In this document: positions 76-29,680 of the stretch, piece by piece
Layout: each line of letters starts with the position of its first letter
Position numbering within the stretch: position 1 is the first letter of the stretch
NCBI GenBank assembly: GCA_963971425.1
Contig: OZ020515.1
Location: 9,564,291-9,628,290 of the forward strand
Source: Bryoerythrophyllum caledonicum
Taxonomy: Eukaryota > Streptophyta > Bryopsida > Pottiales > Pottiaceae
Length of the DNA: 64,000 nt
Direction: 5' to 3'
The notes under the pieces: model-generated
Seen by the model: the letters and a program-made list of their open reading frames with translations, nothing else
The model's database searches: none
Told to the model about the DNA's origin: nothing
Position numbers and translations under genes: made by a program

Positions 76-88
76 CAAGGATACTCAC

Positions 89-3227: not shown

Positions 3228-3316
3228 AACTGAATTCAAGTATGTAAATAATGCTCTGCAAGAAAATCTAGTCAATTTGACCGTTCGCTTAGACGCTTAC
3301 AATCAACTCATGCCTG

Positions 3317-3453
3317 CTTCTCGTTCAACTCTCAGAACTGTGAAAGAGCTTCAGGTCACACTCAAATCACTCACGAACCTCACTCTTTGAGGTTCTCAAG
3401 TGGTTGGAGCGGGACTGAAGCTCTTGCACGATTTATGAGAGGTGAACGAAAAG
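3317..3453. repeat. Long imperfect foldback, copy 1 of 2
   Basis: A 137-nt inverted repeat with arms of about 66 nt around a 5-nt loop. Paired blocks include CTTCTCGTTCA with TGAACGAAAAG, AAGAGCTTCAG with CTGAAGCTCTT, and GAACCTCA with TGAGGTTC. It would fold as one long hairpin resembling a plant miRNA precursor or a tiny foldback MITE. No coding potential is seen. Confidence 0.75.
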
Positions 3454-3524
3454 TAGACGTGAGTTGAGTTAGGAGACTGCAATGACACCAATGTATCAAT
3501 GTTGTATTCAAGTTTTAGCTTCAT

Positions 3525-3547
3525 CTTTAGCTCGACTCGAGCTAAAG
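3525..3547. repeat. Class A palindrome, 23 bp perfect
   Basis: Centred on 3536, arm CTTTAGCTCGA. It lies between the two foldback copies on the 5' side of the 89-3112 gene. Confidence 0.9.
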
Positions 3548-3640
3548 TGCTCATGCATGGATTGCATAGCTGAACAGTTCTGACACTTACAATATTCATT
3601 CAAACGAAATTCCTATACATCTATTTTCAAATCATGGCTA

Positions 3641-3776
3641 CTTATCGTTTAACTCTCAGAACTGCGAAAGAGCTTAAGTTCACCCTTAAATCACTCACGA
3701 ACCTCACTCTTTGAGGTCCTCAAGTGGTTGAAGCGTGACTGAAGCTCTTGCTTACATGTGAGAATTTGACGATAAG
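3641..3776. repeat. Long imperfect foldback, copy 2 of 2
   Basis: A direct duplicate of 3317-3453 shifted by about 324 bp, 136 nt long, with the same 66/5/65 architecture. The terminal pair CTTATCG/CGATAAG replaces CTTCTCG/CGAAAAG of copy 1, which improves pairing and suggests the fold, not just the sequence, is kept. The loop region GAACCTCACTCTTTGAGG is identical to that of copy 1. Confidence 0.75.
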
Positions 3777-3879
3777 TGGACATGAGTTGGGTCGTCGATA
3801 TCATTGGTTTACTATACCTTTGGAGTGTTTAAAGTTTGAGTGTAGTTGTGTTTGAGTTGTTTAAGTTTATTGTCATACA

Positions 3880-3902
3880 CTTTAGCTCGATTCGAGGTAA
3901 AG
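3880..3902. repeat. Class A palindrome, degenerate
   Basis: Centred on 3891 with a central T and one mismatched pair. Isolated copy 193 bp before the regular array. Confidence 0.8.
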
Positions 3903-4070
3903 AGTGTTGGCTTTACTGGAAGGCCATGACATTTTTCACACCGAGAGTTTGAAAGAAGTCATTATGATTACTGTTCCTGTAGCCGGCTTTGGCGCAACCA
4001 TAGACGTATAAAGTCGAACATTTCCGTTCGACTCAAGCTTTACAGGGCGTCCATTGTGCACTATTGATCA

Positions 4071-4411
4071 CACTTTAGCTCGAGTCGAGCTAAAGTGCCC
4101 TCTCCAGTGTGCTTTATTGGCCATAGTTTACCTCGAGTCGAGTTTAAATAAAGCCTAAGGAGCACTGGAGAGCGCACTTTATCTCGAGTCGAGGTTAATG
4201 CAGCCACAAGAGCACACGGGGGATCTCACTTTGGCTCGACTCGAGCTAAAGTGTGGGCCATATTGCTCAGTGGTGGCCCCACTTTAGCTCGAGTCGAGCT
4301 AAAGTGTGACCCATTTTGCACAGTGGAAGCCCACTTTAGCCCGAGTCGAGCTAAAGTGTGGACAATAGTGCAATATCGATGTCCCAGTTTAGCTCGACTC
4401 GAGCTAAACTG
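4071..4411. repeat. Array 1: seven phased class A palindromes, ~52 bp period
   Basis: Palindrome centres are at 4084, 4137, 4188, 4240, 4293, 4345 and 4398, giving steps of 53, 51, 52, 53, 52 and 53 bp (about five helical turns). Copies 1, 5 and 7 are perfect 27-bp palindromes; copies 2 and 3 are degenerate. The central base is G or C on the plus strand. The last copy uses CAGTTT/AAACTG outer arms, the others CACTTT/AAAGTG. The spacers of about 25 bp are not obviously alike, apart from related GGCCATA/GGGCCATATTGC pieces. The array is on the 5' side of the 89-3112 gene, about 960 bp from its first visible exon. A regulatory or transposase-binding array is an inference. Confidence 0.9.
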
Positions 4412-4599
4412 TGTTCATTGAAGAGCTTATTTATTGCAGTTTGTCAGATCCGTCTTTCGTTATATGATATTGAAGGCGTAGGGTTTAGGGCTCCTGGATG
4501 AGAAGCATGGATTTTACCTTTTAGCCATTGATTATGAACCTGAATCCCAGACAATTTCTGGTGGAACTAGAAGTCCTGCAACAACGATAACAAACCCAC

Positions 4600-5240
4600 A
4601 CACACAAAATCAAACAAAGTAGCACATGGAAACCAACACATTGAAATCATTCACAATGAAATCAGCACTTTCAAATGAGCACATTGAAATTAACACATTG
4701 AATTCAGCACATTGAATTTAGCAATTGAAACCACGACATTGAATTCAATGTGCACATCTAAACTAGCACAAACCAGCACATTTAAACTAGCACAAACCAC
4801 GACAAAAAACCACAAACCACCACAAACCACCACATTCAAACTACCACATTCAAACCACCACATTGAATACACAATCTCATCTACCTTCTCACACATACAT
4901 CAAAAGCAATGCTATCATACTGTTTCAATACATCATATCTAAAGCAAAACTACACAAATATCAAAAGAAATGCAAGACTGAATGAGTGCAGTTACCTTTA
5001 AAACTATGAAATCCGACTGAAAAAACTGCAAGTCTTGTTCCTTCTTCACGTCAATCCTTCGAGCACCGCCGTTTCAGACTGTACGTGCTCACAGAAACTC
5101 GCAGAAACTCACACACACTCACAGAAACTCCTAGAAACTCACACACTCACAGAAACTCCTAGAAACTCACACAAACTCACAGAAACTCACAGAAACCCTC
5201 ACAATCTCACACAAACAGCCCTAAACTCCAGCGCTGCAGT
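4600..5240. repeat. Simple degenerate repeats, no gene
   Basis: 4620-4870 is a degenerate tandem repeat built on AGCACATTGAATT and CACAAACCAC words. 5085-5215 is a second one built on CTCACAGAAACTC. The short open frames across both strands are low-complexity products of the repeat and I do not call them genes. 5260-6300 holds no feature I can identify. Confidence 0.7.
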
Positions 5241-6306
5241 GGACACGAACTCACACAATTAAGAATCACACGTCCTACAAACCCTATCTGCAGGAAACCC
5301 TAACGTCCACGAAAGCCTAAACGCACGAAAGCCTAAACGCAGCAGTACAATATACACAAACTTAACAGACCCTGAACATTACGAAACCAACACAAACCGC
5401 AAACTCGCCTCAGAAATCAACAACGCCTAGACAAACACACACAAAACCACGACGAACCGACGCATAAACGCACAACCCTCACAAAACAAGAGCGTACACG
5501 GACACACACAAAACTCACAGCAACGGAAAGGAAGAGAAAATGAGAGCGCCAGGAGTTTCTAGGGTACCTTCGGGGGCACCTAAAGCCGTGAGGGTCGCAA
5601 CCCTGTGGCCGTGTGGTGCTCCCGAGATACCCTCGGGATACCCTTCGTGATATTCGGGTGAGACCCTCGGATATTTTAGATGGATGCACCACAAATTATT
5701 CACCTTCATTATTGATACCCGGAGTTTCAAGAATCCATTTTAATCTTTCTAATGTAAGTTCTAGATATTACGCGCGTGTTGTATTTCTGTACTCGTAAAT
5801 TTCCTACGCAATTTTTCTTGGCCATTATCACTACAATTTTGCATATTCTGGGGCAACGAACAGATAGCAAAAGAAATGTGATTATTTCCAATTTCATTCG
5901 TATGATCTCAATTAAAACTTCTAAATTGGCATTTTCTCAATAATACACAAACTTGGATTGGACGGAAGTGAACGATTATAGTCTTTACTGTTACAAATAG
6001 GATTATAGTGTTTAGTTTTCTGTCATGCTTTCAGTGGATCAGCTGGCTTTCACTTGACTGGATTTCAATTTCTGCATTACAGAAGGAGTACATTCATTAC
6101 CATCGATGTATATAAGTTCCTCCTACACCAATTATTAGGTGAAGCACACTTAAGAGAGTTTTAAAGCTACGATTTTAAGATTCTATTACTTTGAATTCAC
6201 GTTTTGATTATTTATGAGTTTGATATTATATACTTTGAGAATCGAACTGACATTAAGTATGTTAAGACCACATCTTGCAATTGTTTAATTATAAAATAAA
6301 TGTCGG

Positions 6307-6408
6307 TGCACACTTTAGCTCTATTGGAGCTAAAGTGTGCATATTTTCTTTTTAGTTTCCTACATTTCCTGATGGTGCACACTTTAGCTCTAATAGAGCT
6401 AAAGTGTG
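6307..6408. repeat. Two class B palindromes (69 bp apart)
   Basis: Arm GCACACTTTAGCTC, 5-nt loop TATTG, complementary arm (6307-6341), then arm CACACTTTAGCTC, loop TAATA, complementary arm (6378-6408). Both have perfect stems of 13-15 bp. The arms share CACTTTAGCTC with class A but the core is a free 5-nt loop. The linking sequence ATATTTTCTTTTTAG recurs at 22531, so this is a dispersed repeat family. Confidence 0.85.
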
Positions 6409-6469
6409 ATTTTTTCTTTACTTTTCACTTCATTTTGCTTTCACTTTAACGGTACAAATCCAGTAGTTA

Positions 6470-6856
6470 GAGCATCTCCACCCCTGACGGGGAATTTTCC
6501 ACGCCAGCGGGAAGGTGCCCAAGTTTGAGATGAAGGGAGGGGGGTTTATCCTTTTCCCCCCGCACCGTCACCGAATTGGCCACTGTGAGGGAACGCCAGC
6601 GCCCAACACTTACGCCATAGTAGGCTAATTTGTTTTGGGGTTTTTATTGATTTTTTTTAATTCCCTCGTGTAATTACATGATTGAACACATGCTCCCGGG
6701 GAATTTTAGTCTCCCCTGTACTTTCTGTAAATTTATTGTTTAGAAGAACCGGCGCCGCCACTCCTGTGGGCCGATACACCGGCCTAGGCCTCACGGAGTG
6801 GGCTTTACCGTGTTTATTCTCGCATCCCGGTCCCTCGGCCGCGGTGGAGATTCTCT
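6470..6856. mobile_element. MITE-like element with GAGMATCTCCACC ends
   Basis: Left end AGAGCATCTCCACC and right end GGTGGAGATTCTCT are inverted repeats with one mismatch, about 386 bp apart. The body is GC-richer than its surroundings and has no transposase. No clear target-site duplication is visible. The termini look like those of PIF/Harbinger- or hAT-type MITEs, but this assignment is a guess. Confidence 0.45.
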
Positions 6857-6870
6857 ATTTCTAGTACACT

Positions 6871-6955
6871 ACTAGCAATTGGCGCTTGGGTTGCAACGCA
6901 TTAGTTCAACCATTTTCATGTAGTTTTTAAATCACAAAATATTAAAAAAGAAAGG
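6871..6955. repeat. Dispersed repeat shared with 20858-20945
   Basis: The stretch beginning AGCAATTGGCGCTT and continuing through TTGCAACGCAT and an A-rich tail is repeated in direct orientation on the far side of the LINE at 20858-20945. It may be a genomic repeat that flanks the insertion. 7100-7330 is a further simple repeat built on AACTCAATTTGCAATTACAATCTC. Confidence 0.6.
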
Positions 6956-7705
6956 TACCAACAATCTACATAAAATAAAAATATATCTTTGAAACCTATG
7001 CATGAATTTTAATAATGTAATAGAATAGAATAGAAAAAAATTAATTACGTTTTAGATTTTTTTGCATTTTAACATGGAATTTCAAAAAGGTTATGAACGT
7101 CAAATTTGTAATTAAGAGTTTCAAATTTATTTTGGGTAAGCACAAATTGCAACACACAAATGCAAATTTCACACACCCACAAACTCAACTTGCAATTACA
7201 ATCTCAATTTTATACACTCACAAACTCAATTTGCAATTACAATCTCAAAACTTGCAATCTCACCTCAAAACTTGTAATTTCAATCTCCACAACTCGAATA
7301 TGCAATTTTGTACCTCCAACTTTGTATGCCAACCTCCAACTACATATATACTGGGAGAGATGAGAGAAGAGTAGCTCCGCAAAACCTGGTGAGGAGAGGT
7401 TTCTAGGTGTTAGGCGCAATTGCAATGCACACATCAATGAGGGTTGCTGGGCTCATTGTAAATCCCTGTGTGCACGTCCTTTGTTGCTGAACGGTATGCT
7501 TATGGTGTGCAAAGTGTTGAGGGATTGCGTATCTTAGATCTATTGATGCAAAGTATGTAGGAGGTTGCAACAATCTAGAGCTAGTTTGGGAGAGTAGATC
7601 TGTGGCGGGGCTCTGTGTTGGCCCAGATCTAGATCTAGAGGTTGCAGCCCCATATCATCTCTCAATCAATTAGATCCAGATTTAGGTTACCATGACACCA
7701 TAGAC

Positions 7706-10333
7706 ATGCCATACACCTTACCTCTCCTCAACCAGAGCATCAGCACTACTATGAAGAAGAACCACTGCCTACAGAAGACACGAAACAGCCACCGAGACAC
7801 AAGATCACTCTATCAAGGACAACATTCAACAAAATCAGCTAAGTTTTTTCATTACAATACGCTGCCTACATCGTTTCACAGTATAGAATCTAAGTCTAAT
7901 TGCAAAAGGCATCTTGCAAAACCTCATGTTAGGAAATGTAAGTTAGGGTCACATACAACTAGGAAAGTAGTGGAAGCAAGTGTATTTCATAACCCCGCAG
8001 AAATAGAGAAGAACAGATGCCTACTTGGCACAACTGCAGACCATTCACACATAGAGCCCACCCATAATCAGCAGCAGTTCAGCACTACGAAGGAGAGGCG
8101 CCTACGTCTAATCTGTGAAGACCTACAGAATCTACACTCCTACACTGAAGCAGCAGCAGCACCACACCGAAGATCCAAAGCAGCCGCACCAACATATCAA
8201 GATCAACACACCTGCAGTCAACAACAACAGGACCAGGGCGTAAACAACATGACATCAGCCTCAACTCAAAGAATCAAGCACGATGACACAGCACCTCCAA
8301 TGACCAAGATCGAGCAGCACATCAGACTCCCGAAAAACAAGCTCATGCACGAGGTCGCCGCGCACATGAGGAACGTGTTATCACACACGGGTGGTGCAAG
8401 AGGACCGAGTACCGAAATCGGAAATAGCACATGGGTGGAGCAATTCGCAACGATGAAGACGCAGCTCCAGAAGGTGCCCAAGAAAAGCCACGAGGCTGCG
8501 GCGGTTCCAGAGGCCGCGGCGGACGACTTCGCCCCCAAGACCCACGTCGTAAACAGAATGACATCAACTTCAACGAAAGGAGACAAGCACAACGACTCAT
8601 CACCACCACTGGCCAAGGTAAGTATTCCTACCCCTAGTTTATACATCATATGCTTCCAATTTACTTTCACCAGGGAACACTGCAACATCATTTGCCGAAG
8701 ACAACGTCGATTTAGAGAGCAGGAGCTAAAAGAAAAATCAACGACATACAAGAGTCCACCAAAATCAACAAGGAAGGAAGTGCAAGACCATGGACTCCAC
8801 ACCTTGGACAGCCCCACATCAAGACCACCGCAGCGACAACACCACCAAACACATCAACTACAAGCAAGCAAGACCTCAAGACACCAAATAAACAACAGGT
8901 ACGTACAGGTAAGCAACCTCAACATTTCCTCGTTTCCTGTCTTCTCTGGTAAGGAAACACCACTAAATACTAGTAGGATGCCCAAGGACATGCAACTCAC
9001 AAGGAAGTCTGGACAACCACTAGTACACAGACGAAACCCTAGCCGGCAATACAAAAACAACGAACTTTCGAAAGAGCAGGACTCAAACTTCCATCCAAGC
9101 CAAGACAATCAACCAGCCGCAACTCAACGGCTCCCAGAAGAAGCTAACCCTAGAAGATCAACAACCCAAAAACGAAGATGTTCATCAACCACAACTACAT
9201 CCATCAAACACGAGCTCAACACAAGGTATATATCTCACCATCACTTTACTCTCAAACCCTCTTACATTGCTATACCACGTAGACACCCACTCCCATCGCT
9301 GTGGAGACACTGCGACATCTGCTCAGCCCAAGTTGAGGGCAAGTACCTGCTTGAAGCCACGAAGGACCAACGGAGGAGAGAGACGTCACCCCCAAGATCG
9401 GCCTGGACACTCCTCGCCTTGACTACCTACGACAGTGAAGAACGGTTTACTCCCTTCCTTGTAATCTTGTTGTCTTTTATGGGGATTGTTTGTAAACTGA
9501 CAGTCGTTAACAGGACGCTAACATGTGCCTCACAGAGAGAACGGCACCTGCACCTGCAGACAATAGTAGAGGAACTTCTGTTAAATGTCGCATCTCACGC
9601 AGTACACATACAGGTGAAGTACAGAACGAGTAAAGCTATCCAGACTCACCGCCGAAGCCCGCAGCAGACCAACTCGAGGATCCATCAGCCGAAGTCGAAG
9701 TCGAGAAACTGCCCCGCAGGTGGACCCCAAGGCACACACCGACGCAAGAAGGACCAAGAAGCCCTGTCCCAAGACCCGAATGCCGAGCACATCAACAGAA
9801 CAAAGAGCAAGGAGACTGCACCACGAAGAAGGTCTGCGCAAGATCCAAACAAGTCGCCACAGACAACCGCTGTAGAAGACCGATGTAGGTGGAAGAAGAT
9901 TGCCAACAGGCGCAGAGGGAGACCACACACTTACGAAGAAGGGCCGACGAAGCCCGACCAACAACACGTCAGGCGAGACTGCTGTGCCGGCGCAAGTGAA
10001 GTCCAAAGACTGCATACGAGCGAAGACGACCACTCCCAACGGCCGCGACTCCACCACATCCTCCCGGAACCTCGGCAAACCCCGCAGCTGGTCCGCCGAC
10101 AGACGCCCAAGCGCTGGTCCTGCAAACGGGTTGCGGCAACTCCGCCGACGTCCCAAGAAACCCTAACCTCGGTAACGGCTCCAGAAGTTCTACAAGAGCG
10201 AAGAGAGCGCCAACTGCCTGCCCAAGATTGGAAGAGATCCGTTCGGGGATCATTCAAGGACCATCAGCTCGGCAAGAAGAAGCGAGCCGCGATAAGAGAG
10301 GTACTTTCCACGCTACATCAACCTGGAGAATAG
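7706..10333 (+). CDS. Long low-complexity ORF (875 codons), status uncertain
   Basis: An ATG-initiated frame open for 875 codons, rich in Lys, Arg, His, Gln, Thr, Ser and Pro, with no recognised domain. A segment beginning NMTSASTQRIKHDD is repeated as RMTSTSTKGDKHND about 100 residues later. Against coding: stop triplets are rare in all three forward frames here because the DNA is A/C-rich and T-poor. T-rich islands also look like introns: GTAAGT at about 8619 to TTTCACCAG at about 8672, and similar GTAAG and GTATAT islands near 8910, 9225 and 9450. If those are spliced, the open frame is accidental and this is a spliced leader or 5' UTR of the downstream LINE. It lies 570 bp upstream of LINE ORF1. 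It could be a LINE ORF0, a 5' UTR, or an unrelated gene. Confidence 0.3.
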   Translation: MPYTLPLLNQSISTTMKKNHCLQKTRNSHRDTRSLYQGQHSTKSAKFFHYNTLPTSFHSIESKSNCKRHLAKPHVRKCKLGSHTTRKVVEASVFHNPAEIEKNRCLLGTTADHSHIEPTHNQQQFSTTKERRLRLICEDLQNLHSYTEAAAAPHRRSKAAAPTYQDQHTCSQQQQDQGVNNMTSASTQRIKHDDTAPPMTKIEQHIRLPKNKLMHEVAAHMRNVLSHTGGARGPSTEIGNSTWVEQFATMKTQLQKVPKKSHEAAAVPEAAADDFAPKTHVVNRMTSTSTKGDKHNDSSPPLAKVSIPTPSLYIICFQFTFTREHCNIICRRQRRFREQELKEKSTTYKSPPKSTRKEVQDHGLHTLDSPTSRPPQRQHHQTHQLQASKTSRHQINNRYVQVSNLNISSFPVFSGKETPLNTSRMPKDMQLTRKSGQPLVHRRNPSRQYKNNELSKEQDSNFHPSQDNQPAATQRLPEEANPRRSTTQKRRCSSTTTTSIKHELNTRYISHHHFTLKPSYIAIPRRHPLPSLWRHCDICSAQVEGKYLLEATKDQRRRETSPPRSAWTLLALTTYDSEERFTPFLVILLSFMGIVCKLTVVNRTLTCASQRERHLHLQTIVEELLLNVASHAVHIQVKYRTSKAIQTHRRSPQQTNSRIHQPKSKSRNCPAGGPQGTHRRKKDQEALSQDPNAEHINRTKSKETAPRRRSAQDPNKSPQTTAVEDRCRWKKIANRRRGRPHTYEEGPTKPDQQHVRRDCCAGASEVQRLHTSEDDHSQRPRLHHILPEPRQTPQLVRRQTPKRWSCKRVAATPPTSQETLTSVTAPEVLQERRERQLPAQDWKRSVRGSFKDHQLGKKKRAAIREVLSTLHQPGE

Positions 10334-10900
10334 AAGTGCGCGACATCTGGAAGGGGACCACCAAGCTACGCCAACAAACCTTGTCTTTCGCGTACTACAA
10401 GAACCGTAGTGGTGCTCACACCAACCAGACAGAGACTTCAGCTACAGGCAAGCGAGAGGTACACCACCACACGGGGGGACCATCAAATCAAGACTCTACC
10501 CCCTAGGCTGCAAGGTGGAATTACACACTCAGGTTTTACTTCTTTCACACCCCCATTACAATTTATTGATCTTTGCCAACTTTGGGATTATTATGCAATC
10601 CAAAGGACATGTAAACAAAATGTATTAATCAAGCCAGTTACTTGGGGAGGTGCCCAATATTTTGGCGCCTCCCATGCGTGTGTATGTGTAAAGGTCAATG
10701 CGCTGTACTTCCAACCTTTAGAAATTGTTTTAGTATCTTGTTGGTACACCATTAGAACGAATTTCCACCCCTTCTTGATAAACTCTCCTTCGAAAAGCCC
10801 TCAACATATGTTGGGGGGAGAAGCTGAGATCAAGAGGATAAGGGGTAACGAGATAATACGATGTACCTTTAGAATTGACATTTTTTGTTATTGCTACAGC

Positions 10901-12487
10901 ATGTCTCAATATCAAGATGGTGCAACCTCCTCCAAGCGCTTGTTTATTGATGTGGTTGAGGAAAACCCTGGTCCAGTAAACGTCAATCATAACCTTCTAT
11001 TTATCACAAACACTACCCAGAAAAAAGTGAAGGCAACAAGTTTGCCTTACACTGAATACTGGTTAGGATATCATGCAATGAATATGATGGCAAGGACCAA
11101 TGGAAGTGAGAAAATACCATTAGTTAGTATTGAGGAATTGGTCAAGTCCGGCCTAGACATAAAAGAGGCAAGGGAAAGCTTCGAAGCACTACCCTCATTT
11201 CCATTCGTTGCCCAAAAAGAATGGGCAGCCACAAGGATAGACGGGAAAGAGGGTAACCACTTCAACCTCACTCAACTTCCAAGTGAAGTTGAGGTGGACA
11301 GTAATGGTTATGCATTGGATTACCATGTGGCAATTCAATTCGAACTTGGCGATCAAATTTGGTTGAAAAATGTTGTATTAGGTATGGTCAAAGCTAGATT
11401 GAATGAAATGAAAATCCCTACCGGGACAGGTATTGGTGAGCCCATTGCCATCTTTTGCCACCACCAAACAGACAATTGGAATGGGCTTATTAAGATACAC
11501 CTAAAAAACCCAGGCTCGGATGGTAGAGGACTATTGAAAGGTTTAAGACCTTTCATTCTCATCTTGAATGAAGGGATCCCACACAAAGGAAAAGTATGCA
11601 AGTCATACGATTCCCTTGCCTTTTCACACCTCCTATCCGTCAAAATATCCGGCCCAAACCTTGCAAACAAGGAGTCTTTTGAATTGCATTCAGAAATTGT
11701 TAGAGAGAGTTTTGCTAGAGGTCAAGACTTTGAAATAACCGGGGTGGAAAAAAGGGGCCCATCCGATTTTGCATGGGTCAAAACCCCCTCCCCGGAACAA
11801 GCGGCGAAAGTAAAAGACTATAAAGTCTCATTCTCCAATGAGATCTTTTTGCCGGTTTTTGCAACTAGGAAGTTAGATGAAGATGAAATTGCAAAAAAGA
11901 ATTGTCTTATCCTTATTGCCAAAAACCTTAACAAGACAAAAAATGAAAAAGAACTTGCAATTGGAATCAAGTCTATATTCGGCGAAGAGAATGTGGTTGA
12001 TATATTCTTCAAGCTTGAACACGGGCGGCATGTAGGGACATGTAACATTGAATGTCTAAACGCTGCGGTATACAAAAAACATGTCAAACAAAGTAAAAAA
12101 CTTCACGGAAAGTATGTCATGTTTACCCCTCATCCTAAAAGTTTAGATGGAAGTAACAAACCGAGTGCGGATGAACTTACAAGACTAGGATTTTCCGATA
12201 TAAACTCAGCAGTAGTAAACGCCGTGATAGCCATGGAGAATGGACCAAACAAGGGCAATGGGGTCACCCTCGACCAACTTCGAAAGGAAATGAAGACTAT
12301 GAAGGGGGAGATCGTACAAGAGGCCAAACAATACGCGGATATGGTACAAGCCAACACGGTGAAATCTCTTAGAGGAGAAATGTCAACTCTCCGATCCCAA
12401 CTGATTCAAACAATCATGGCGGCCGAATCTCAAGCATCGGAAAGAGAGCAACGGGCCATTGAAGGCAAGATGGACTTGTCAAACTAG
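10901..12487 (+). CDS. LINE ORF1 protein (528 aa) with N-terminal 2A-like motif
   Basis: Probably a nucleic-acid chaperone binding the LINE RNA. I chose ATG 10901, which puts the motif DVVEENPGP at residues 17-25; in-frame ATG 10808 is an alternative. Relative to the 2A consensus D(V/I)ExNPGP, the NPGP and the preceding Glu are kept but the Asp is displaced by one residue, so ribosome skipping may be weak. Residues of about 110-240 form a region shared with the broken ORF1 at 61369-63057 (for example KNVVLGMVKARLNEMKIP against KKLALARLEYMKMP). Residues of about 330-410 have an RRM-like pattern (NCLILIAKNL ... GTCNIECLNAAVYKKHV). The last 80 residues are a heptad-rich coiled coil, suited to trimerisation. 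No CCHC zinc knuckle is present. It ends in TAG at 12485-12487. Confidence 0.8.
   Translation: MSQYQDGATSSKRLFIDVVEENPGPVNVNHNLLFITNTTQKKVKATSLPYTEYWLGYHAMNMMARTNGSEKIPLVSIEELVKSGLDIKEARESFEALPSFPFVAQKEWAATRIDGKEGNHFNLTQLPSEVEVDSNGYALDYHVAIQFELGDQIWLKNVVLGMVKARLNEMKIPTGTGIGEPIAIFCHHQTDNWNGLIKIHLKNPGSDGRGLLKGLRPFILILNEGIPHKGKVCKSYDSLAFSHLLSVKISGPNLANKESFELHSEIVRESFARGQDFEITGVEKRGPSDFAWVKTPSPEQAAKVKDYKVSFSNEIFLPVFATRKLDEDEIAKKNCLILIAKNLNKTKNEKELAIGIKSIFGEENVVDIFFKLEHGRHVGTCNIECLNAAVYKKHVKQSKKLHGKYVMFTPHPKSLDGSNKPSADELTRLGFSDINSAVVNAVIAMENGPNKGNGVTLDQLRKEMKTMKGEIVQEAKQYADMVQANTVKSLRGEMSTLRSQLIQTIMAAESQASEREQRAIEGKMDLSN
10949..10975 (+). other. 2A-like motif in ORF1 (DVVEENPGP)
   Basis: Residues 17-25 of ORF1. 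Known 2A peptides cause the ribosome to skip the final Gly-Pro bond, and N-terminal 2As of sea-urchin proteins can also act as targeting signals. Here V occupies the position of the consensus Asp and Asp lies one residue earlier, so activity is uncertain. Confidence 0.6.
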
Positions 12488-12768
12488 CATTGTCAAACAA
12501 CGCTATAAACAAAGAATACACAACAGTATATATATATACTATAATATATAATATAATAAACAATCTCCAAAATACATATAAAATTAAAATAATAAAAATA
12601 ATAATAACTCTAGTGTATTTATACACTATTAAACACAACAAATACAAACAAAATATAAATAACAACTTAATTAAAAACAAACAAGGATTTAATTCAGTAT
12701 ATTTATATACTAAAACAACTATTATAAAGTTACAGAAAAGTTATAATAATACACATAGGACACAGAAC
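12488..12768 (+). other. AT-rich ORF1-ORF2 linker with three phased hairpins
   Basis: Three similar hairpins sit at 12525-12540, 12612-12627 and 12696-12711 (steps 87 and 84 nt). The second is AGTGTA-TTTA-TACACT and the third AGTATA-TTTA-TATACT, which differ by a compensated base pair; the first is a 16-bp palindrome AGTATA-TATA-TATACT. The ORF2 frame stays open through this AT-rich stretch, back to a TGA at 12460 inside ORF1, yet has no ATG until 12769. The other two frames close quickly. Confidence 0.6.
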
Positions 12769-20520
<7,752 letters not shown>

Positions 20521-20752
20521 ATCTACACTTGCATTTTTGCACTCTTTGTACTTGCCCTCCCTCTTTTAAAAACTTTTTGGGACCTCGGGTCCTTTGATAT
20601 TGGTTACTTGCTACTGGTACATAGTGTCCACCCTCGAAAGGGGGAAGTAGTTCCATACTACTAACCCATGCCCGGTGGGCATGGACTTAGTGGTGGAACG
20701 AACGGACACTTTACTCACGCCGGCCTCCTCCGGGGACCGGCGTTCTTCTTCT
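20521..20752 (+). promoter_or_regulatory. Structured LINE 3' UTR (probable RT recognition region)
   Basis: Four stem-loops follow one another: CCCTC-GAAA-GGGGG (20631-20644, GNRA tetraloop); AGTAGT-TCCAT-ACTACT (20646-20662); CCATGCCC-GGT-GGGCATGG (20666-20684); and CGCCGG...CCGGCG (20718-20742). The copy at 31360-31480 keeps all four, with GAGA in place of GAAA and compensatory pair changes in stems 3 and 4. Stringent-type LINE RTs are known to bind such 3' stem-loops; that this one does is inferred. Confidence 0.75.
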
Positions 20753-21720
20753 GCCAACCTCCAAGATCACAACTCCAACTTCATTGCGTGGTTTTATATT
20801 ACAAACTATATTAAAGAAAAGGTAACATGATTCACTGTGCGGTTGGCTGCACCGTTCCTAGCAATTGGCGCTTGCTTTGCAACGCATATGTCCAACCATT
20901 ATAATGACGTTTTTATAATACAAACTATAAATAATAAAAAGGTAACATGGTTCACTGCACGGTTGACTACGCAATTAACTGCGCGTTTGACTGCACTGTT
21001 TATGTAGTTCACCGCACGGTTGACTACGTGGTTCACTGCGTGGATTATGATTTTAGTAGTATGATTAGTCAACAAGTTGGCAACTAGTTTTAGCCACCAT
21101 TGTCATGAATATTATCCCTCATTTGTTCACCTACTACAGTTCATTTTGTAATAGCCCTCTATCAAAACTCTTCCCTAGCACACAATTTTGATACTTGATA
21201 AATTGTATAAGCTCAATATGTTATACCTACCGAACGCCATGCATTTATTCTTCGTCTCATCTTCAACCTCAATTTCTTATCGTCTTATCCACAACTATTC
21301 TCATTCCCATCTCTTGCATTTTTTTAATATTTTTTAATATTATCCAAATGAATATTTAATGTGTAATCATAAAATTAGCCAATAACTAATGACTTTGTAA
21401 TGATTTTTTATAGGATACTTCATGTATATTTGTATATCTAAAACTTCTATGCACAATTAAAGAATATTTAAATTTTACTTAATGAATGTTTGAAGTTTTA
21501 AAAGTATATTTTAGGATAGTTTAATTAATATTTGTATATTTAATGATTATTTATAGAGTATTTAATGCACTGTTAATGAATAGATAATGAATAGTGCATA
21601 AATTTCTAATGTAAAATTAATGTGTAGTTGAATATTCAATAAGTATTTAATGAATATTTACTGAATATGTAATGCACATTGAATGCATAAAACACCATAT
21701 TCATTATATTGGGAGATTGG
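20753..21720. repeat. AT-rich flank with diverged tandem repeats
   Basis: 20788-20870 and 20903-20980 are related copies (TTTTATA...ACAAACTATA...AAAGGTAACATG(A/G)TTCACTG). 20858-20945 is the repeat also present at 6871-6955. 20985-21060 repeats GGTTGACTACG/GTTCACTGC words. 21440-21690 repeats AATGAATATTTA words. No gene is seen. Confidence 0.6.
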
Positions 21721-21821
21721 GAGCCTCCCAAATTAATATTTGAAGGTTGAGAATGACCTAAATATGCAAATATTTAGTAAATTTGCACAATGCAATTTGT
21801 CCAATATCTACAATATGGGTA

Positions 21822-21850
21822 CATATTCAGCTTGAGTCGAGCTGAATGTG
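21822..21850. repeat. Diverged class A palindrome
   Basis: Centred on 21836. Inner arms are CAGCTTGA and TCGAGCTG, outer arms ATTCAGC and GCTGAAT, so the TTTAGC/GCTAAA pair has changed on both sides together. 21960-22250 around it is T-rich with only a chance ORF. Confidence 0.7.
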
Positions 21851-22489
21851 CACCAAAAAAATGTATTGGAAAAACCGTTCATAACTTTCAAAATCCTGGA
21901 AATCTCCCAATAAAATGAGTATGGTGTTATAATATGTGATGGATATCTAATGAGTATTTTACTTGTATTTCTATATTTATTGTATGTTTAAGTTTTTTCC
22001 TTTTCCAATATTCCTTTCTTTTCTCATTTTCGTTTCCAGAAGAATGTTCTTATATTTCCAATCTTCTACTTGCAGTTTCATTTTCCCTCCATATTTTACA
22101 TTCTACTTTGTCCAATTTTTGATATTTTTCGTTTGCTCCATACCTACGTCCGATTATTCCCAAGCTCTTTCTTGCAAATTCTTGCTTTTCTACATGCACT
22201 CAACCCTTCCTTACTATGATGCTCAAGATGTAATCAAACCATGATTATGGTTTCCTAAACTAATTGTCCACAAGTAAAAAACTTTATGTTCCACTATTTA
22301 CTAGGATTGACATTTAAAGTAGTAGTTGACATTGGGTGATGTATAGTTTTGACACTACACTTATTGTTCATTTTACAATTACTGTATGGATTCCTAATTA
22401 GTGTCCACTTCTCTAGAAGCCATCTTCTGTATACTGGAGCTACATAGTGCATTTTTGCTTTCTAATCTACTCCATTTAGTGATGGTGCA

Positions 22490-22680
22490 CAATTTAGCGC
22501 TATTAGAGCTAAACTGTGCATATTTTCTTTTTAGTTCACTACACCCAGTGATGAGGCACACGTTAGCGCTACTGGAGCTAAAGTGTGTGCACACACTCCT
22601 TTTGGTTCATTGCACAAAGTGATGGTGAACACCTTTGCTAAAAATCGAGCTGATGTATGTGCAATGTGTATATCCACTTC
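22490..22680. repeat. Class B palindrome block, copy 2
   Basis: Two diverged class B palindromes, centred near 22513 and 22572, with the same linking sequence as 6307-6408 (ATATTTTCTTTTTAGTT). The downstream part (about 22600-22790) is homologous, in direct orientation, to 28680-28860. 22800-23930 has no gene I can support. Confidence 0.7.
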
Positions 22681-23940
22681 TACAAACAATCATTTTGAAC
22701 TCCGTACTTCTCTTTATGGTTAAGTATTTCACAAGTGAAATCGTAATCTTTTGAATTTTAAAAGGGTTTTCAAAATATGTGGATCTAAATCTCCAATAGT
22801 AATATTAAAAAGCAAAAAAATATGACGATCCCCTAGTCTTTAGTGGATATGAAGTCTAAGTATTCTTGGTACCCTAAATCAATAATATGTGACAATGTGT
22901 GAAAATGTATGAATTGGGATGTAATCTTATTTTTCACTAGAAGAATAACATGTTTATCCACAATATCATTCGTTCTAATATTACTTCTATGTATTCAAAA
23001 TATCACATTCCATACTGAGTCATAGCAAAACATTTTTCAGGTTGCTCGACGTGCCGGCAATCGAGAAGTTTCTCTTTTGGCTCGCATAACTTTTATTGAA
23101 GACGTTCATTGAGAAAATATAATTATGCCTCATGACTTTTATCATCCTTCTACAAAATTTTGAGAATGTCAAAAATAATTTGCAACCACTAGAACGTGCT
23201 CAAAAACTAATTATTCCGTTTTTGCTTGTATCAATAAATTCAAAATTACTTACATTACGAACATTAAATTATGCCTGATGCACTAAGTGATACACTTTGT
23301 ATTAGTTATATTTTATATTTTGATTATCCTTTTTTTGTCATGAGGAGGTCTCTCCGTTCCTTGTTGAAATCTTTTAATATTGTTCCACTCTCTATGTGTT
23401 ACAAATGACAAAGTCTTTAATTTCACGTCAAAACATGAAATAAATTGTGTATGGTCAAGAATTCTTCCATCTTTCAAGTCATGCTTAGACTGCCACACCC
23501 TAAACTCATGATAATGCAATGCGAACTCAAATATAAGATATTTTAATTCAAAATATTAGTAACCAATTTCAATTCCAAATCCAGACCATGGAGACACTTG
23601 GGATTCTTGCCAAAGAATGCACATTCTAGATTGATGACAAAATAGTAACATGATGCACATTTTTAAAACCCCAAAGAAATGATGTCCAAAGCATGTTTGA
23701 ATACATAAATTTTTGCTAAAAATACACGTGCACATAAAATATGTTTTTTAAAAAAAAGCTACTTGTTTGTTAAGGTCTTTGATTTCAACATAATAGATAA
23801 GTCCTATTTGGATTGTAATACAAATTATTTCTAATCATCTCAATATCTTCTCGACATTTCCCTATACCTTAGTTGAATTGTCAATATCTTGAATGTTCAA
23901 AGTATTATTATATTGAAATGAAATGACATCAGAAGATAAC

Positions 23941-24075
23941 ACCTAAACCAAGGACCCTAAACCCTGAACCCTAAAACCTGAACTTAAATACCAAACCCTA
24001 AATCCTAAACCCCAAAATCCTAACCCTAAACCCTAAACCTAACCCTAACCCAAACCCTGAGCGTTACCCTAAAAC
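23941..24075. repeat. Interstitial telomere-like tract, degenerate (CCCTAAA)n
   Basis: About 130 bp of ACCCTAAACCCTGAACCC-type words: plant-type telomere heptamers with many substitutions. It could be an internal healed end, a gene 5' UTR telo-box cluster, or slippage. 24076-24690 has no gene beyond a chance 86-codon frame. Confidence 0.8.
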
Positions 24076-24690
24076 CTTGTATATAACTCGCATGTGCGAG
24101 TATATTCGAGGTATGTACTCTTCCTTATTTTAGTCAGCCAGGAAATAGTTGATTCTGTTTCCCGCTAAGATTTTGAATTTGCACCTTTTTAGGGGCTGTG
24201 GAAAAGCCCCCCCGCCAATTCTGAAGTTTCCTCCCGCCAATTCTGAAATGGTCGTGTGTCCGTGAGTGACCTCGCCGATCCTCGAAAACTTTCTTCATTT
24301 CTTTCCTTTCTCACTTTGGTTGCTGTGCAAGGTTGTTGTGGAGAGGCTTGGAGGGAGAAGAACTGTCGGAGGTTGAGGAGGGTAACATCTACAGGTTACG
24401 CACGGTTGAGCAGGGCGCTTGCGCGAGGCAACAACGCACCAGTTGTCTTCTTCATAAGGTACACAATGTGTACTTCTTGCATTCTCTGTGCACAGTCTCT
24501 AGCAATTAGGATGTGACAGTGTGTAGGGTTATTTGCGGTGGTTCCAGTTGCTACTGTGATTTTTAAGCATCACTGCGAGTTTCGTGACGACTAACGGGAA
24601 GATTTGGGTTGTAGTACACAGAGAGTCAGATTCATATGCTGAAGAGTTTTACCATATGAATCCCTAAAAAGACGCCGAAAATCACGGAAC

Positions 24691-25096
24691 GACAGTTTAG
24701 CTCGAGTCGAGCTAAACTATCTTACATTATTGTATTGACATTTTAGCTCGAGTCGAGCTAAAGTGTCCTTGGAATGATGGTAAGACAGTTTAGCTCGACT
24801 CGAGCTAAACTGTCTTACATTATTATATTGATATTTTAGCTCGAGTCGAGCTAAACTGTCATACCTTCTTTCCTAGTTCAATTCAGCTCGACTTTAGCTA
24901 AACTGTCGATAAATATTATTATCGATAGTTTAGCTCGAGTCGAGCTAAATTGTCTTACCTTCTTTTGAAGGAAAGTTTAGCTCGACTCGAGCTAAACTGA
25001 CATACCTGATGTCCTATTTCTGTTTAACTCGACTCGAGTTAATATAACAATCAGTCTGGTAGTCATAAATTTAGGTCGGGTCGGGCTTAGTTGTCT
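24691..25096. repeat. Array 2: nine phased class A palindromes, 46-47 bp period
   Basis: Centres are at 24706, 24752, 24799, 24845, 24892, 24939, 24986, 25033 and 25080, giving steps of 46, 47, 46, 47, 47, 47, 47 and 47 bp. The third is a perfect 39-bp palindrome (24780-24818). The ninth (TTAGGTCGG/GTCGGGCTTAG) is strongly diverged yet keeps the exact spacing. Spacers differ, but some hold their own small inverted repeats, e.g. CGATAA...TTATCG and CCTTC-TTTT-GAAGG. Two further degenerate copies are centred at 25188 and 25270, off the period. The array ends about 285 bp upstream of the 25382 start codon. A promoter, transposase-binding or structural role is inferred. Confidence 0.9.
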
Positions 25097-25381
25097 TTGT
25101 CAAGGGTGAAATAATTTCATATTCGGCTTATAGCTAATTGCATGAAATTTTATACTTGTCATCTTATACCGCATGAGTTTACCTCGAGTCGAGCTAAATT
25201 TACATGGTCTGCCATGTCAGCTCACTTGAATCATACCTTTTTTTTTTCAAGCGCCAGACCTTACCTCGATTCGAGATCAATTACCCTCCTCCTATGCTGC
25301 TTCATAAATGTCTATTCCTTCAAGGGGTTACCCATTTTTATTTGTCAGGGTTTTTTATTATGTATCTCATTGGAATGCAGG

Positions 25382-28213
25382 ATGTCGTCTTCGGAGGGCG
25401 ACGATGTTCATGTTGACGCTCCCGTGAATCCAGACCTGCCTGAGTTTGATGTTATTCCTCGCCGTCTCTGGGTCGGGCTGACTGTTTCGCTTCACAATGG
25501 TTCGGGTGTTCGCGTTGCAGAGGGGTTGGTTCGCAATGTCCGGTCCAGTGCACTTCTGGGTTCCTCTGGTCCTCTTGGGGATTCGAATGTTGTAGTACAG
25601 GTGTCCAGTACTTTTGTTTTAGACGAAGCTCCTGATGAGTGGAGGTACTCGTTTAAGACCTGGCCTATTCAACAAGTCTTCTTAAACGGTGTGAGTCTCT
25701 TCCATCATTGCCTTCGGGACATTTACAATGTCTGGTTGGTTGAGCGTAACAGACCTCTAGGTGGGAGCTCCCGTTCGTACGACAATTCCTCAAGGAATAC
25801 ACGTCCAACAGTGTCCAGGAATGCTGAATTTCTCATGACCCCTCTTTCCATTAACGTTGTTGCGAGCAATAGTTGTTGCAGTCAAAACTGTGTTCAACAC
25901 TACCCTAGAGATAAAATAAGAGTCCTTCGGACGCGCTTGTACAGTGAGACCATCGTGCAGTTCAGAAATCATATCAAACTCGACGTTCACAGGCAGTTTC
26001 ATAGAGACGTTGTGGGTAGGAAGGTTGTGACCCTAGAGGGTGTGGACGTTTGTGCCCATGCGTGGATGAAAATCATGGGTGTAAGTTCGAGTACTTTCTA
26101 TCGGAATGCGAAGGACGCTGCCGCTGGTCATGCCGCTCAACACCACGGGAATACCGGTTTGCGTAAGCCTAGAGGTCATACGGTTGTGGCTACTGCCGCT
26201 CTTGGAGCCATTCTCGATAGACATGCGGACCACATGCCTCACAAGTCTCGTGTTCTCCCATCTGGGGAGAAGGCTGTGGCAAAGGTCCTCCCTGCAAGTT
26301 TTAAGTGGAAGGATCAGATACCGCTTCTTGATGATCATCTCGCTGATTGCGGATTGCCGCCAATCTCAACCTCAAGCTTGAGTAAGATTCGGCGTGTGAG
26401 CTTCCCTGAGTACTATGCCAAGACAGGTGGAGACAACTTTGCCCGTTGTTCTACTTGTGACAAATACCAGGATCAGAAGAAGCTTACTCAACCTGGAACA
26501 CAAGCATCACTGCTATGGCAAAAGAAGATGCAGGTTCACATTGATTCTGCTTTCTCACATCGGGACTTGTACTACCTGAACCGATTTCGATCAAAGTCGT
26601 CGCCTCAGGAGGTTCTTACCATCATGCATGATAAGATGGATCACTCAAAGACCGCCTCCCCGGTTTTTTCACATAAAACAAAGCACCTAGATGGGCTTAT
26701 GAAGTTGCCTCTTGCAATCACAGGTATGCTTGCCCATGGTCATGTGGACCAGCGTTACGCCCATTACGGCCTTGATTTATACTCCCATGATGCCAATTAC
26801 ACGGTCGGGTCGTTCGCAAAACTATTGCGTGACCTGGAGGCGCCTCTGAAGTCATCGTCCCGGCAACTCTTCCCAGAATCTAGTTCTCATCCATTGTATG
26901 CGGCGGTATTACGGGGTGCGGAGATGTGTTTGGATCCATTAGGGCCGATTCCAGATATCCTAGTTCCAGGGAGGCCTTTGCCACCAATACTGAATGTTCA
27001 AATGGACAATGCAGTTGGTGATAACAAAAATAGATTTGTTTTCTGTTTTTGGTCTCTCCTTGTTGCAAAACGCATCTTTCGCGAGGTGTATGTTAATTTT
27101 ATGCTAGTTGGGCATACACATGATGATATAGATGCATTATTTGGACGTTGGAGTATGACACTGAGGAAGGAGAGTTTTCCAACTATTCCTTTGCTCATGA
27201 GGTCGTTTATGAAAAATGAGAGTGTTCCCACAATCCCGCATCTCATCCAAGAGGTTCCTGACTTTAAGAAGTTCATTGGGGGTATGATTGCGGACGGTGA
27301 TGAAGCTTTGGAGGGTCATACAAAGGCTCATCAGTTCAAGTTTTATGTGGATTCAAGTGGTTGTCCGGTAATGAAGTATAAAATCCTTTGTCATGATGAG
27401 GATTGGCTTCCTAAGGGAGGAGAAGGTAGTGGCATCAAATTGTGGAAGGAGGATTGTGAAGGAAGATCTTTATGGCCTCGCGGAGAACCTGATGCATTGA
27501 AGCCTTCTATGATGCGGCATCTCCATGAGGTGGTGAAGGGACTTTCAGGATTCATCGATCACTGGGAGCAATCATCTCGGGAGTCTGTTGAAGCCCGATC
27601 GCGTTTTGAGCCACTTTCGTATTATTGGCGTGATGTTAGAGCTGCTCTGATTATTCCAATGGATACGCCGATATCATTGGTAGACGGCTTTTGGCCGACG
27701 ACGCGAATTGCCCATGCCATTGAAGATGAGTTCTCAGCGGAGGGTGAGGTTCGTGAGGAGTACCGTGAAGATGAGCATTTTGTTGGCCAAAGGCACGATC
27801 GTCCACCTCCTTCTTTTAGAGTTGGTCGTGATCTTTTTGCTGGCTATTTTGTTGCATTGCGTCCTTGTGATGGGGACGAGCGCCCATTTTGGATTGCTCA
27901 AGCAGTTTCAGATCCTAATTCTAACCCGGATATGCCAAACACCGTGCGTATCCAATTCTTCCGCCCTATATCGCGCGATCGGGATGTTATGAAGTTCTAT
28001 AAAGATTGGGACACAGATTGCAACCTTCGTTGGACAATTGAAAAGGGGATAGCCATAACGTGGGAGAGTACCGATTCAATCTTGACAGCATGGAAACCTA
28101 GGTCTTCAAAGAGGGATGGAGGTCATGTGCAAGATTCAACTACAAAAATTCCGAAGGGACAAGTAGCAATTATCAAGGCTTCTTTGGAAGCACTTGCCAG
28201 GTCCGAATTGTAA
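25382..28213 (+). CDS. DUF7869-type, transposase-like protein (943 aa)
   Basis: Single open frame ending in TAA. The frame is open from 25142, but I chose ATG 25382 (MSSSEGDDVHVD): it follows a possible splice acceptor (GAATGCAG) and the upstream codons are translated palindrome. A Cys motif CSTCDKYQDQ lies near residue 356. Three motifs resemble a DDE/RNase H-like active site: HDKMDHSKT (about 416), VQMDNAVGDNKN (about 541) and GHTHDDIDALFG (577-588). The last two define the family that Pfam calls DUF7869, found in plants, animals and fungi and often near transposons (family knowledge). The C-terminal segment 810-910 (DLFAGYFVALRPCD...PFWIAQAV) looks like a BAH/Tudor-like reader (guess). The frame is intact. 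It is flanked by palindromes on both sides, so it may be the transposase of a large element, or a domesticated one. Confidence 0.75.
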   Translation: MSSSEGDDVHVDAPVNPDLPEFDVIPRRLWVGLTVSLHNGSGVRVAEGLVRNVRSSALLGSSGPLGDSNVVVQVSSTFVLDEAPDEWRYSFKTWPIQQVFLNGVSLFHHCLRDIYNVWLVERNRPLGGSSRSYDNSSRNTRPTVSRNAEFLMTPLSINVVASNSCCSQNCVQHYPRDKIRVLRTRLYSETIVQFRNHIKLDVHRQFHRDVVGRKVVTLEGVDVCAHAWMKIMGVSSSTFYRNAKDAAAGHAAQHHGNTGLRKPRGHTVVATAALGAILDRHADHMPHKSRVLPSGEKAVAKVLPASFKWKDQIPLLDDHLADCGLPPISTSSLSKIRRVSFPEYYAKTGGDNFARCSTCDKYQDQKKLTQPGTQASLLWQKKMQVHIDSAFSHRDLYYLNRFRSKSSPQEVLTIMHDKMDHSKTASPVFSHKTKHLDGLMKLPLAITGMLAHGHVDQRYAHYGLDLYSHDANYTVGSFAKLLRDLEAPLKSSSRQLFPESSSHPLYAAVLRGAEMCLDPLGPIPDILVPGRPLPPILNVQMDNAVGDNKNRFVFCFWSLLVAKRIFREVYVNFMLVGHTHDDIDALFGRWSMTLRKESFPTIPLLMRSFMKNESVPTIPHLIQEVPDFKKFIGGMIADGDEALEGHTKAHQFKFYVDSSGCPVMKYKILCHDEDWLPKGGEGSGIKLWKEDCEGRSLWPRGEPDALKPSMMRHLHEVVKGLSGFIDHWEQSSRESVEARSRFEPLSYYWRDVRAALIIPMDTPISLVDGFWPTTRIAHAIEDEFSAEGEVREEYREDEHFVGQRHDRPPPSFRVGRDLFAGYFVALRPCDGDERPFWIAQAVSDPNSNPDMPNTVRIQFFRPISRDRDVMKFYKDWDTDCNLRWTIEKGIAITWESTDSILTAWKPRSSKRDGGHVQDSTTKIPKGQVAIIKASLEALARSEL

Positions 28214-28529
28214 TAGACTTAGATAAATGGAGTTTCCTTTTCCTAGATTTTAGATTCTGATGCGTAATACTTCATGTAGTATGGTTAGATCCATTGGTGC
28301 TGGGATTATAGATATTTGTATTTCATTAATTTACACTCTGTATGACTATAATATGTGATGCCAATGATTGCTATGAAATATTCTCTCCATTCTTTTTGTG
28401 TATCGGTGATAATTTGCAGTATGTTTTATTTTCTTTTTATAATAACAATGTGGTAAATTGCTTCTAGTCTTGAAACCAATAATACCAGTAATTGCCTTTA
28501 TGGTGAATGATAGAAAGTAAATGTTGGGT

Positions 28530-28910
28530 CGCACTTTAGCTCTAGTGGAGCTAAAGTGTGAGCAAATCTTCTTATTGACACTTTAGCTCTCCATTCTTTT
28601 TAGTTCAGTGTACTTAGTAATGGTGCGCACTTTAGGTCAAGTGGAGCTAAAGTGTGGAGTTTCCTTTTTGAGTTCATTGCACCTCTAAGTGATGGGGACA
28701 CTTTAGTTCGAAAAGAGGTAGTGTGTGCAATTTTTTTCCCAGTTCTGAGCACCATCATTTGAAACTCGTTATATATTTTTTTGGCCAATGTGAATTCCAG
28801 AAGGAGAATTGAAATTCTTTTAAATCAAAAAGGGCTCATCAAAATGTGTTAAGCTAATTCTCTTACAAGTGGATATTTGTCCGTCATTTAGCTCACTTTT
28901 AGCTAAATTG
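28530..28910. repeat. Class B palindrome block, copy 3, downstream of 25382 gene
   Basis: Palindromes at 28531-28560 (GCACTTTAGCTC-TAGTG-GAGC...), 28625-28657 and a broken one near 28700, then an 8-bp hairpin ATTTAGCT/AGCTAAAT at 28886-28908. The layout and linkers match 22490-22790. 28214-28530 is the AT-rich 3' flank of the gene. 28910-29640 shows no gene. Confidence 0.7.
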
Positions 28911-29680
28911 GAGCATGGTATTAATCCGGGTTAGTAGGATCGAGGGTGAATATTTAGCTATTCATATTCAATGAACACATGTGGTATAAAAGAAGTGTCA
29001 ACTAATGTGTTCTTCTTTTCAATATTATAGTTAGATTCGTAATGTAATGTTATCCGGAGTACTTATTTTTCTACGGGTTTTTGTAGAAAACATTACCTCC
29101 CAATTTAATGGAAACTCATATCCCTCCATATTGTAGAGTTTAGATGTGCACTTTAGCTCTTATTATCTACATGTGTTAATTTGGGAGTCACTAAATCTCC
29201 CAATATAACGAATACGGTGTTATATATAGAGGTAAACGCTTGTTTTGTTTTTCTTGTTAAGGGATAGCGTAAGAAATACCAAATCCAACCGAATTGATTT
29301 CACATTTTTCCATATTGTAAAGAATTCAATTTCATATTTTTCATATTGTAAATTTCTACCCCTGTCCAAAATGTACATTATTTAAATTTGGGAGATGAAC
29401 TGCAATCTATTTAGAACCTCGTCCACGCCTAGGAATCTCCACCTCCGTTGTCTCAAAAGTCTCCTCCACCACAATCTTCTTCCAAACCCTAGGTTTGAAG
29501 ATTCAAACCCTACGAGCCACCACTCTCTTTCAAAACCCTAGCTTTCGTGCCCTTCCTTCATGCTTCTTTCAACACCTCCTTCAACCTCCTTCTTCCTCCT
29601 TCTTTTTCTTCTTCACCTCTTCCTTGAAATCCAACTCCTCTAAAGAACCCAACTACTAGAGAAAAACTCCACTATGTGAG

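Follow-up and report, generated by a model that had tools for sequence, protein, structure and literature searches.

Genes and palindromes in the window

The window, which is the whole stretch of 64,000 nucleotides analysed here, begins inside a DNA transposon and contains its right end. The element carries a DUF7869 gene on the plus strand (gene 2), which is divergent from a multi-exon gene on the minus strand (gene 1). The features of the window are listed below.

1..29221, plus strand: portion of the transposon in the window; its left end lies 3,954 bp beyond the window, at contig C2:9560337
52..72: one palindrome, in the inferred intron 2 of gene 1
89..1455, minus strand: gene 1 exon 2, 455 aa, splice sites placed by eye
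1538..1653: two palindromes (1538, 1633), in the inferred intron 1 of gene 1
1682..3112, minus strand: gene 1 exon 1, 477 aa, splice sites placed by eye, probable ATG at 3112
3203..3901: three palindromes (3203, 3526, 3881), between array 1 and the probable ATG of gene 1 (3112, minus)
4022..4408: array 1, eight palindromes with a period of 51-53 bp, the first decayed (6 mismatches), upstream of gene 1
6314..6403: pair of variant palindromes TTTAGCTCTANTRGAGCTAAA in the spacer between the genes, 69 bp apart
7340..20751, plus strand: LINE inside the element, flanked by a target duplication of 13 bp (TGCCAACCTCCAA); copy E (see below) lacks the LINE
21691..21928: miniature element of 238 bp with the terminal repeats of the transposon and ATAA on both sides; one palindrome at 21826-21846, of the sister-family type
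22493..22582: pair of variant palindromes beyond the LINE, also 69 bp apart
24696..25090: array 2, nine palindromes TTTAGCTCGANTCGAGCTAAA with a period of 46-47 bp, upstream of the DUF7869 gene
25178..25280: two diverged palindromes, 25178 (1 mismatch) and 25260 (4 mismatches), irregularly spaced between array 2 and the ATG
25382..28213, plus strand: gene 2, 943-aa DUF7869 protein (Pfam PF25273, E 1.9e-42)
28535..28907: variant palindromes 28535, 28631, 28702 (decayed) and 28887, 3' of gene 2
29194..29221, minus strand: terminal inverted repeat of the right end, AATCTCCCAATATAACGAATACGGTGTT; ATAT flanks the right and the left end

The units of array 2 start at 24696, 24742, 24789, 24835, 24882, 24929, 24976, 25023, and 25070, and the successive spacings were 46, 47, 46, 47, 47, 47, 47, and 47 bp, respectively. 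The last unit has decayed with 5 mismatches and is still in register. These nine in-register starts confirmed the original prediction of nine palindromes at a strict period that runs through a decayed unit, and the predicted distance of about 285 bp to the gene is close to the approximately 290 bp that separate the array from the probable ATG at 25382. At 3 mismatches or fewer, TTTAGCTCGANTCGAGCTAAA had 28 matches in the 64-kb window and 0 in 100 dinucleotide shuffles. Judged by eye, array 2 probably lies in a 5' intron of gene 2. The 52-bp array, which the original prediction took to have arisen separately from the 46-47-bp array or to have been re-spaced, is the upstream array of gene 1 in the same element. 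Three homologous modules, near 6.3, 22.5, and 28.6 kb, contain the variant palindrome. Some other repeats were observed around the two genes, including degenerate telomere-type CCCTAAA repeats at 23954-24058 upstream of gene 2, which are consistent with a plant or algal genome, a short repeat of the CCCTAAA type near 4477 upstream of gene 1 (by eye), and a segment of approximately 165 bp with two direct copies (3303-3469 and 3627-3792, 84%) between the single palindromes upstream of gene 1, which also matches itself inverted. Elsewhere in the window, a Tc1/mariner-type transposase (44982-45980), interrupted by one in-frame stop, is bracketed by direct repeats at 43720-44542 and 46081-46912 (79%).

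The pairwise identity in array 2 was 92.5% for the palindrome cores and 56% for the spacers, compared with 47% for shuffled spacers, and in array 1 the cores and spacers were 82% and 55% identical, respectively. Some spacer segments of array 2 are inverted relative to each other (24736-24814 and 24924-25002, 87% complementary), and unit pairs of 93 bp recur within the array, both of which indicate growth of the array by tandem duplication. Apart from the decayed unit, the number of units is 10 in a near-identical copy on another contig and 8 in the window copy. Because tandem duplication yields an even period, the strict period can be explained without selection; since the period comes for free and the unit number varies, the notable feature is the conserved core rather than the period. 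If the array were a neutral minisatellite that happened to lie inside a transposon, the variable unit number of close copies and the 93-bp segments, duplicated or inverted, would be expected. However, we disfavour this explanation and consider it very improbable, because the cores are conserved far above the spacers, single palindromes are dispersed in inferred introns, and, as described below, a palindrome is exact in a relative at a dS of 1.41 and the palindromes of a sister family have changed in concert.

Gene 1 is represented in the window by two minus-strand ORFs, 1649-3157 and 68-1633, and by eye we infer introns at about 1681-1456 and from 88 leftward; the later ORFs of this gene lie to the left of the window. 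One of the gene-1 ORFs (L073:1445-2296, minus) has an NLI-interacting-factor-like (NIF) phosphatase domain (PF03031, E 5.3e-18), which was the only above-cut-off Pfam match among them. We infer that this ORF is spliced to the rest of gene 1, and its phosphatase domain is possibly a host gene captured by the transposon. No Pfam family matched exons 1 and 2 above the cut-off. A ParB-like reading of gene 1, which was based on the residues NGQHS seen by eye, received no support.

The gene 2 protein scored 145.5 bits against the PF25273 profile, which has a curated cut-off of 26, and DUF7869 was the only Pfam domain found in it. Residues D417, D420, D470, D542, E568, D582, D584, E613, and D704 were invariant in 9 proteins, the other eight of which are 21-76% identical to gene 2, and are candidates for the acidic triad of DD(D/E) transposases. 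The DUF7869 protein is likely the transposase of the element. A search of PDB sequences gave no match at E up to 1, and the name DUF7869 was not found in a full-text search of 5.39 million open-access papers. Nor was a similar system recognised among the open-access papers listed.

Ends, copies and nested insertions of the transposon

The original prediction had proposed that the element ends be mapped by comparison, and the comparison of genome copies gave ends of the form AACACC...GGTGTT. An inverted repeat inside the window suggested that the right end is at 29221. When the DNA was searched with a query starting at 28500 (40 of 1466 candidates scored), all 39 other long matches began at the query start, were 95-100% identical, and stopped at 29221-29226; there were three short matches besides. 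The left end was located by comparing loci L051 and L052 and falls at L052:47, and the 39 other matches (40 of 730 candidates scored) all began at query 33-47, 31 of them at 44-47. At these termini, the 4-bp target duplications were identical in 10/10 paired other copies, and the window copy has ATAT on both flanks. Terminal inverted repeats with a target duplication of fixed length, which are expected of a cut-and-paste DNA transposon, were thus present in the ten copies and in the window copy. One full copy, copy E, was found at C8:9077898-9097502 (19,605 bp; L073 with L074), and its aligned pieces are 98-99.7% identical to the window copy. The window motif had 17,453 genome-wide matches at 3 mismatches or fewer, compared with 10 for a reversed control (437 Mb, 894 contigs). 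Array 2 belongs to a 19.6-kb DNA transposon, which is present in high copy number and was recently active.

At the threshold used, copy E has 37 palindromes, and none of them (0/37) falls within the 40% of the element that is taken up by ORF spans. They occupy the upstream regions of both genes, the spacer between the genes, the 3' region, and every gap that separates two gene-1 ORFs. The palindromes of these gaps are at element coordinates 5494 and 5589; 4008, 3914, and 3787; 2706; and 1359, and one at 642 lies beyond the last ORF. The original prediction compared array 2 with subterminal arrays, and a subterminal position was not supported, because the 37 sites are spread over 19.6 kb and array 2 is about 4.1-4.6 kb from the right end, which is the nearer one, and 15 kb from the left end. 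The two dense arrays stand beside the gene starts, and their distance to the nearer end is about 4 kb for array 2 and about 8 kb for array 1. Only single palindromes are closer to the ends, the first at 642 and the last some 310 bp before the right end.

The large distance between the arrays of the window is due mostly to the LINE. A single giant unit with arrays approximately 20 kb apart was considered, the outline of which was right, but the inter-array distance in copy E is 6.6 kb. The LINE ORF (12463-20520) contains reverse transcriptase and RNase H with a PCIF1_WW match between them (E 1.4e-8), and a run of about 198 CAA copies (12798-13391) lies in its open frame. NPGP motifs, which we take to be 2A-like, are visible near the start of this ORF and in the preceding ORF.

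We also considered whether the inverted repeat at 21691 marks the left end of an element of 7.5 kb, and this was ruled out, since 21691-21928 is the nested miniature element, which is absent from copy E. All 39 other scored matches (40 of 1752 candidates) have the miniature element. At its left end it is similar to the right end of copy E, and at its right end to the left end of copy E. At the corresponding site, copy E reads GAATGCATATTAATATGTG, which is 3 bp longer than the expected pre-insertion site and resembles an excision footprint of the miniature element.

Palindromes of related DUF7869 genes

One relative (L001) came from a prokaryotic genome collection, in an assembly that bears the name of an uncultured cyanobacterium, and its contig is evidently a eukaryotic contaminant of that assembly. 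The L001 protein is 76% identical to gene 2 over the full length (dN 0.16, dS 1.41) and scored 145.7 bits against PF25273. Upstream of this gene, all 20 defined letters of the palindrome at 114-134 are exact, and one-mismatch palindromes are found at 34 and 489; degenerate copies lie downstream, and there is no 46-bp period. The exactness of the palindrome despite a dS of 1.41 argues for a function. Relatives were not found in phages, plasmids, or viral contigs, and four pattern matches (L002-L005) were rejected, being without a protein relative.

Other copies of gene 2 in the same genome were compared, as the original prediction had suggested. These were the 17 lowest-scoring of 48 scored copies (5169 first-look candidates), they are 96-97% identical, and 1 kb upstream was taken from each. 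All 17 keep the array in the same upstream place, with 5-10 palindromes each at 4 mismatches or fewer. The spacing was 46-47 bp, with 51 bp in three copies and 92 bp where a unit is missing or decayed. Among 15 motif loci, which overlap, represent about eight places, all on contig C1, and are no random sample, 14 belong to the window element and one (L018) to a sister family.

The sister family (L099 with L018) has the terminus of the window element with 1 mismatch, and its gene-1 exons show 25-45% amino-acid identity. Its palindromes stand between the corresponding gene-1 exons and are mostly of the form TTCAGCTCGANTCGAGCTGAA (TTCAG...CTGAA), which had 674 exact genome matches and 0 in the control. 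The changed dyad position is C-G in 15/18 palindromes, T-A as in the window in 2/18, and mixed in 1/18. A DUF7869 gene was not found within 6 kb on either side of L018; according to the layout of copy E, it would lie beyond 6 kb.

To describe the symmetry, 39 palindromes at 5 mismatches or fewer were used (32 from the window and 7 from L001), in which related copies are counted separately, so the comparisons do not give true probabilities. The two arms paired more often than shuffled partners at positions 2, 6, 10-13, 15, and 17, with the clearest excess at 2 and 11. Position 11 was paired in 24/39 palindromes (11.6 expected from shuffled partners), and position 15 in 19 (11.5 expected). This dyad symmetry fits a dimer-binding site or a hairpin alike. 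As a hairpin, the palindrome might act in RNA, where those in the 5' and other introns would influence splicing or small RNAs, or as a DNA cruciform. Such a role agrees with symmetry that is kept at positions 11 and 15 where the letters are not, with the simultaneous change of both arms in most sister-family copies, and with a palindrome that precedes the probable ATG of gene 1, L001, and gene 2 by 90-101 bp. However, this ATG-nearest palindrome is present in only 5/17 gene-2 copies at 4 mismatches or fewer and missing in 12/17. G:T mismatches compared with A:C mismatches in the sense orientation numbered 14 to 7 or 22 to 13 (P 0.09 each), which is no clear G-U signature. Moreover, the pairing statistics treat related copies as independent, and the symmetry would also be preserved by template-switch repair of imperfect palindromes or by a symmetric dimer. 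On this evidence we regard the hairpin as improbable.

Among the 30 highest-scoring DUF7869 loci (L021-L050), 28 main ORFs aligned with the domain region of gene 2 at 22-27% identity, while the ORF of L026 aligned partly and that of L028 not at all. The window motif was absent from their 1.5-kb flanks, but these flanks do not extend far enough to include an upstream array. The flanks of three remote clades were represented by one copy each (L023, L029, and L041). Upstream of L023 (clade C) there are 14 units of another imperfect palindrome at exactly 60 bp, about 2.4 kb before the ORF, with two less regular units besides, and a second array of nine units of 55-62 bp ends just before the ORF. 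The two clade-C arrays, at L079:753-1533 and 3424-3923, consist of a palindrome unrelated to that of the window. Most units are imperfect as palindromes, and symmetry is only loose in the array closest to the gene. The clade-C motif had 117/103 matches vs 0; among the matches listed, clusters lie upstream of L021, L025, and a gene at C2:37927589, and 14 further places were listed besides.

Upstream of L029 (clade D) there are three or four copies of a third palindrome, which had 412/412 genome-wide matches vs 0. Clade-D elements end in AACATGGAATTCGC..., and nine other copies stop at the same query point; the end pattern had 69/76 matches vs 0. In paired ends, the 4-bp duplication was perfect in 8/10, one pair had one mismatch, and one had mutually inverted flanks. 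Of the exact motif places, 30/36 tabulated ones lie 1.7-2.4 kb inside the terminal repeat (36 of 50 places among the matches listed, 14 of one tandem cluster being left out). At C2:3619356-3633899, pairs of the clade-D palindrome (61 bp within a pair) recur mostly every 1,933-1,934 bp over 14 kb, and this is apparently a tandemly amplified segment. At the L041 copy, 4 kb of upstream and 3.5 kb of downstream sequence were examined, and a palindrome array was not seen; its clade, the largest other DUF7869 clade, accounts for 15 of the 30 highest-scoring loci. Palindrome arrays thus accompany 3/4 of the DUF7869 lineages looked at, including that of the window (one copy per remote clade). The predicted association of the array with a transposable element and a candidate transposase gene was upheld, but the L041-clade copy, without an array in the stretches examined, speaks against an array at every DUF7869 gene.

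The main rival to the explanation proposed below is that the palindromes are transposase-binding sites, at which the DUF7869 or gene 1 protein builds the transposition complex. The miniature element, which has the same terminal repeats, retains one palindrome, and copy E shows the footprint-like excision trace; the motif places of clade D are concentrated at 1.7-2.4 kb from the terminal repeat, and no gene-2 copy examined has lost its array. However, the dense arrays of the window family are located kilobases from the ends and beside the gene starts, further sites occupy inferred introns in the window family and in the distant sister, and the sites near the ends are only single. Weighing these points, we consider a role in transposition possible but unlikely as the main explanation.

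Proposed role of the palindromes and comparison with known systems

We propose that the palindromes are clade-specific sites that co-evolve with a DNA-binding protein encoded by the element, and that this protein would counteract silencing or activate the element's own copies, like VANC; we give this explanation about an even chance. A co-evolving, sequence-specific protein would best account for sites that stand in promoters and inferred introns, resist drift, are tandemly amplified, and have changed in concert between families. The palindromes would be recognised by a dimeric, sequence-specific protein of the element, either the gene 1 product or the DUF7869 protein, and the dispersed sites would change together as the binding protein changes. 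When bound in promoters and introns, the protein may keep the chromatin of the element open, so that both genes are expressed. The anti-silencing or activation would be limited to the element's own copies, as with VANC on VANDAL, and the bound protein may additionally help to assemble the transposition complex.

A broader proposal, which we put forward tentatively and rate as somewhat doubtful, is that DUF7869 transposons form a separate superfamily of giant, multi-gene elements with a private chromatin-opening code independent of VANDAL, in which each clade would have a long palindrome of its own throughout the noncoding parts of the element, and these palindromes would shift synchronously by compensatory changes in the two arms as the clade's DNA-binding protein diverges. 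In this study, the DUF7869 domain was linked, in two clades remote from each other, to transposons whose mapped ends are flanked by 4-bp target duplications. Families A and B and clades C and D form a natural series along which proteins and scattered DNA sites seem to evolve together, so that both this co-evolution and the possibility that anti-silencing by transposons arose a second time can be tested directly.

En/Spm (CACTA) elements have CACTA termini, a 3-bp target duplication, and motif arrays in the terminal few hundred bp, and their protein TnpA binds the motif sites at the element ends to build the transposition complex. The window element resembles these DNA transposons in being large, in having two proteins, and in carrying a short motif many times over. 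The comparison with En/Spm in the original prediction did not hold further, because the window element has AACACC termini, a 4-bp target duplication (10/10), sites that are not subterminal instead of terminal motif arrays, and only DUF7869 in gene 2. Target duplications of 4 bp occur in the superfamilies Sola, Chapaev, and Ginger, which share this length with the window element. KDZ/Zisupton and Dada elements were considered as leads from the literature.

VANDAL elements of Arabidopsis, which are Mutator-like, and their VANC proteins are the described system most similar to the one in the window. VANC motifs are family-specific and occur in introns and upstream regions as tandem repeats that expand and contract; the VANC motif of VANDAL is the 9-bp YAGTATTAY, and VANC binding and loss of methylation have been demonstrated (PMC5735166, PMC10398659). 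In contrast, the window element has a DUF7869 candidate transposase, a 4-bp target duplication, and a palindrome of 21 bp or more, and its gene-1 ORFs show only the phosphatase domain above the cut-off. Both systems are multi-gene DNA transposons with a family-specific tandem motif in introns (here inferred from the gaps between ORFs) and upstream regions, and in both the motifs differ between related families.
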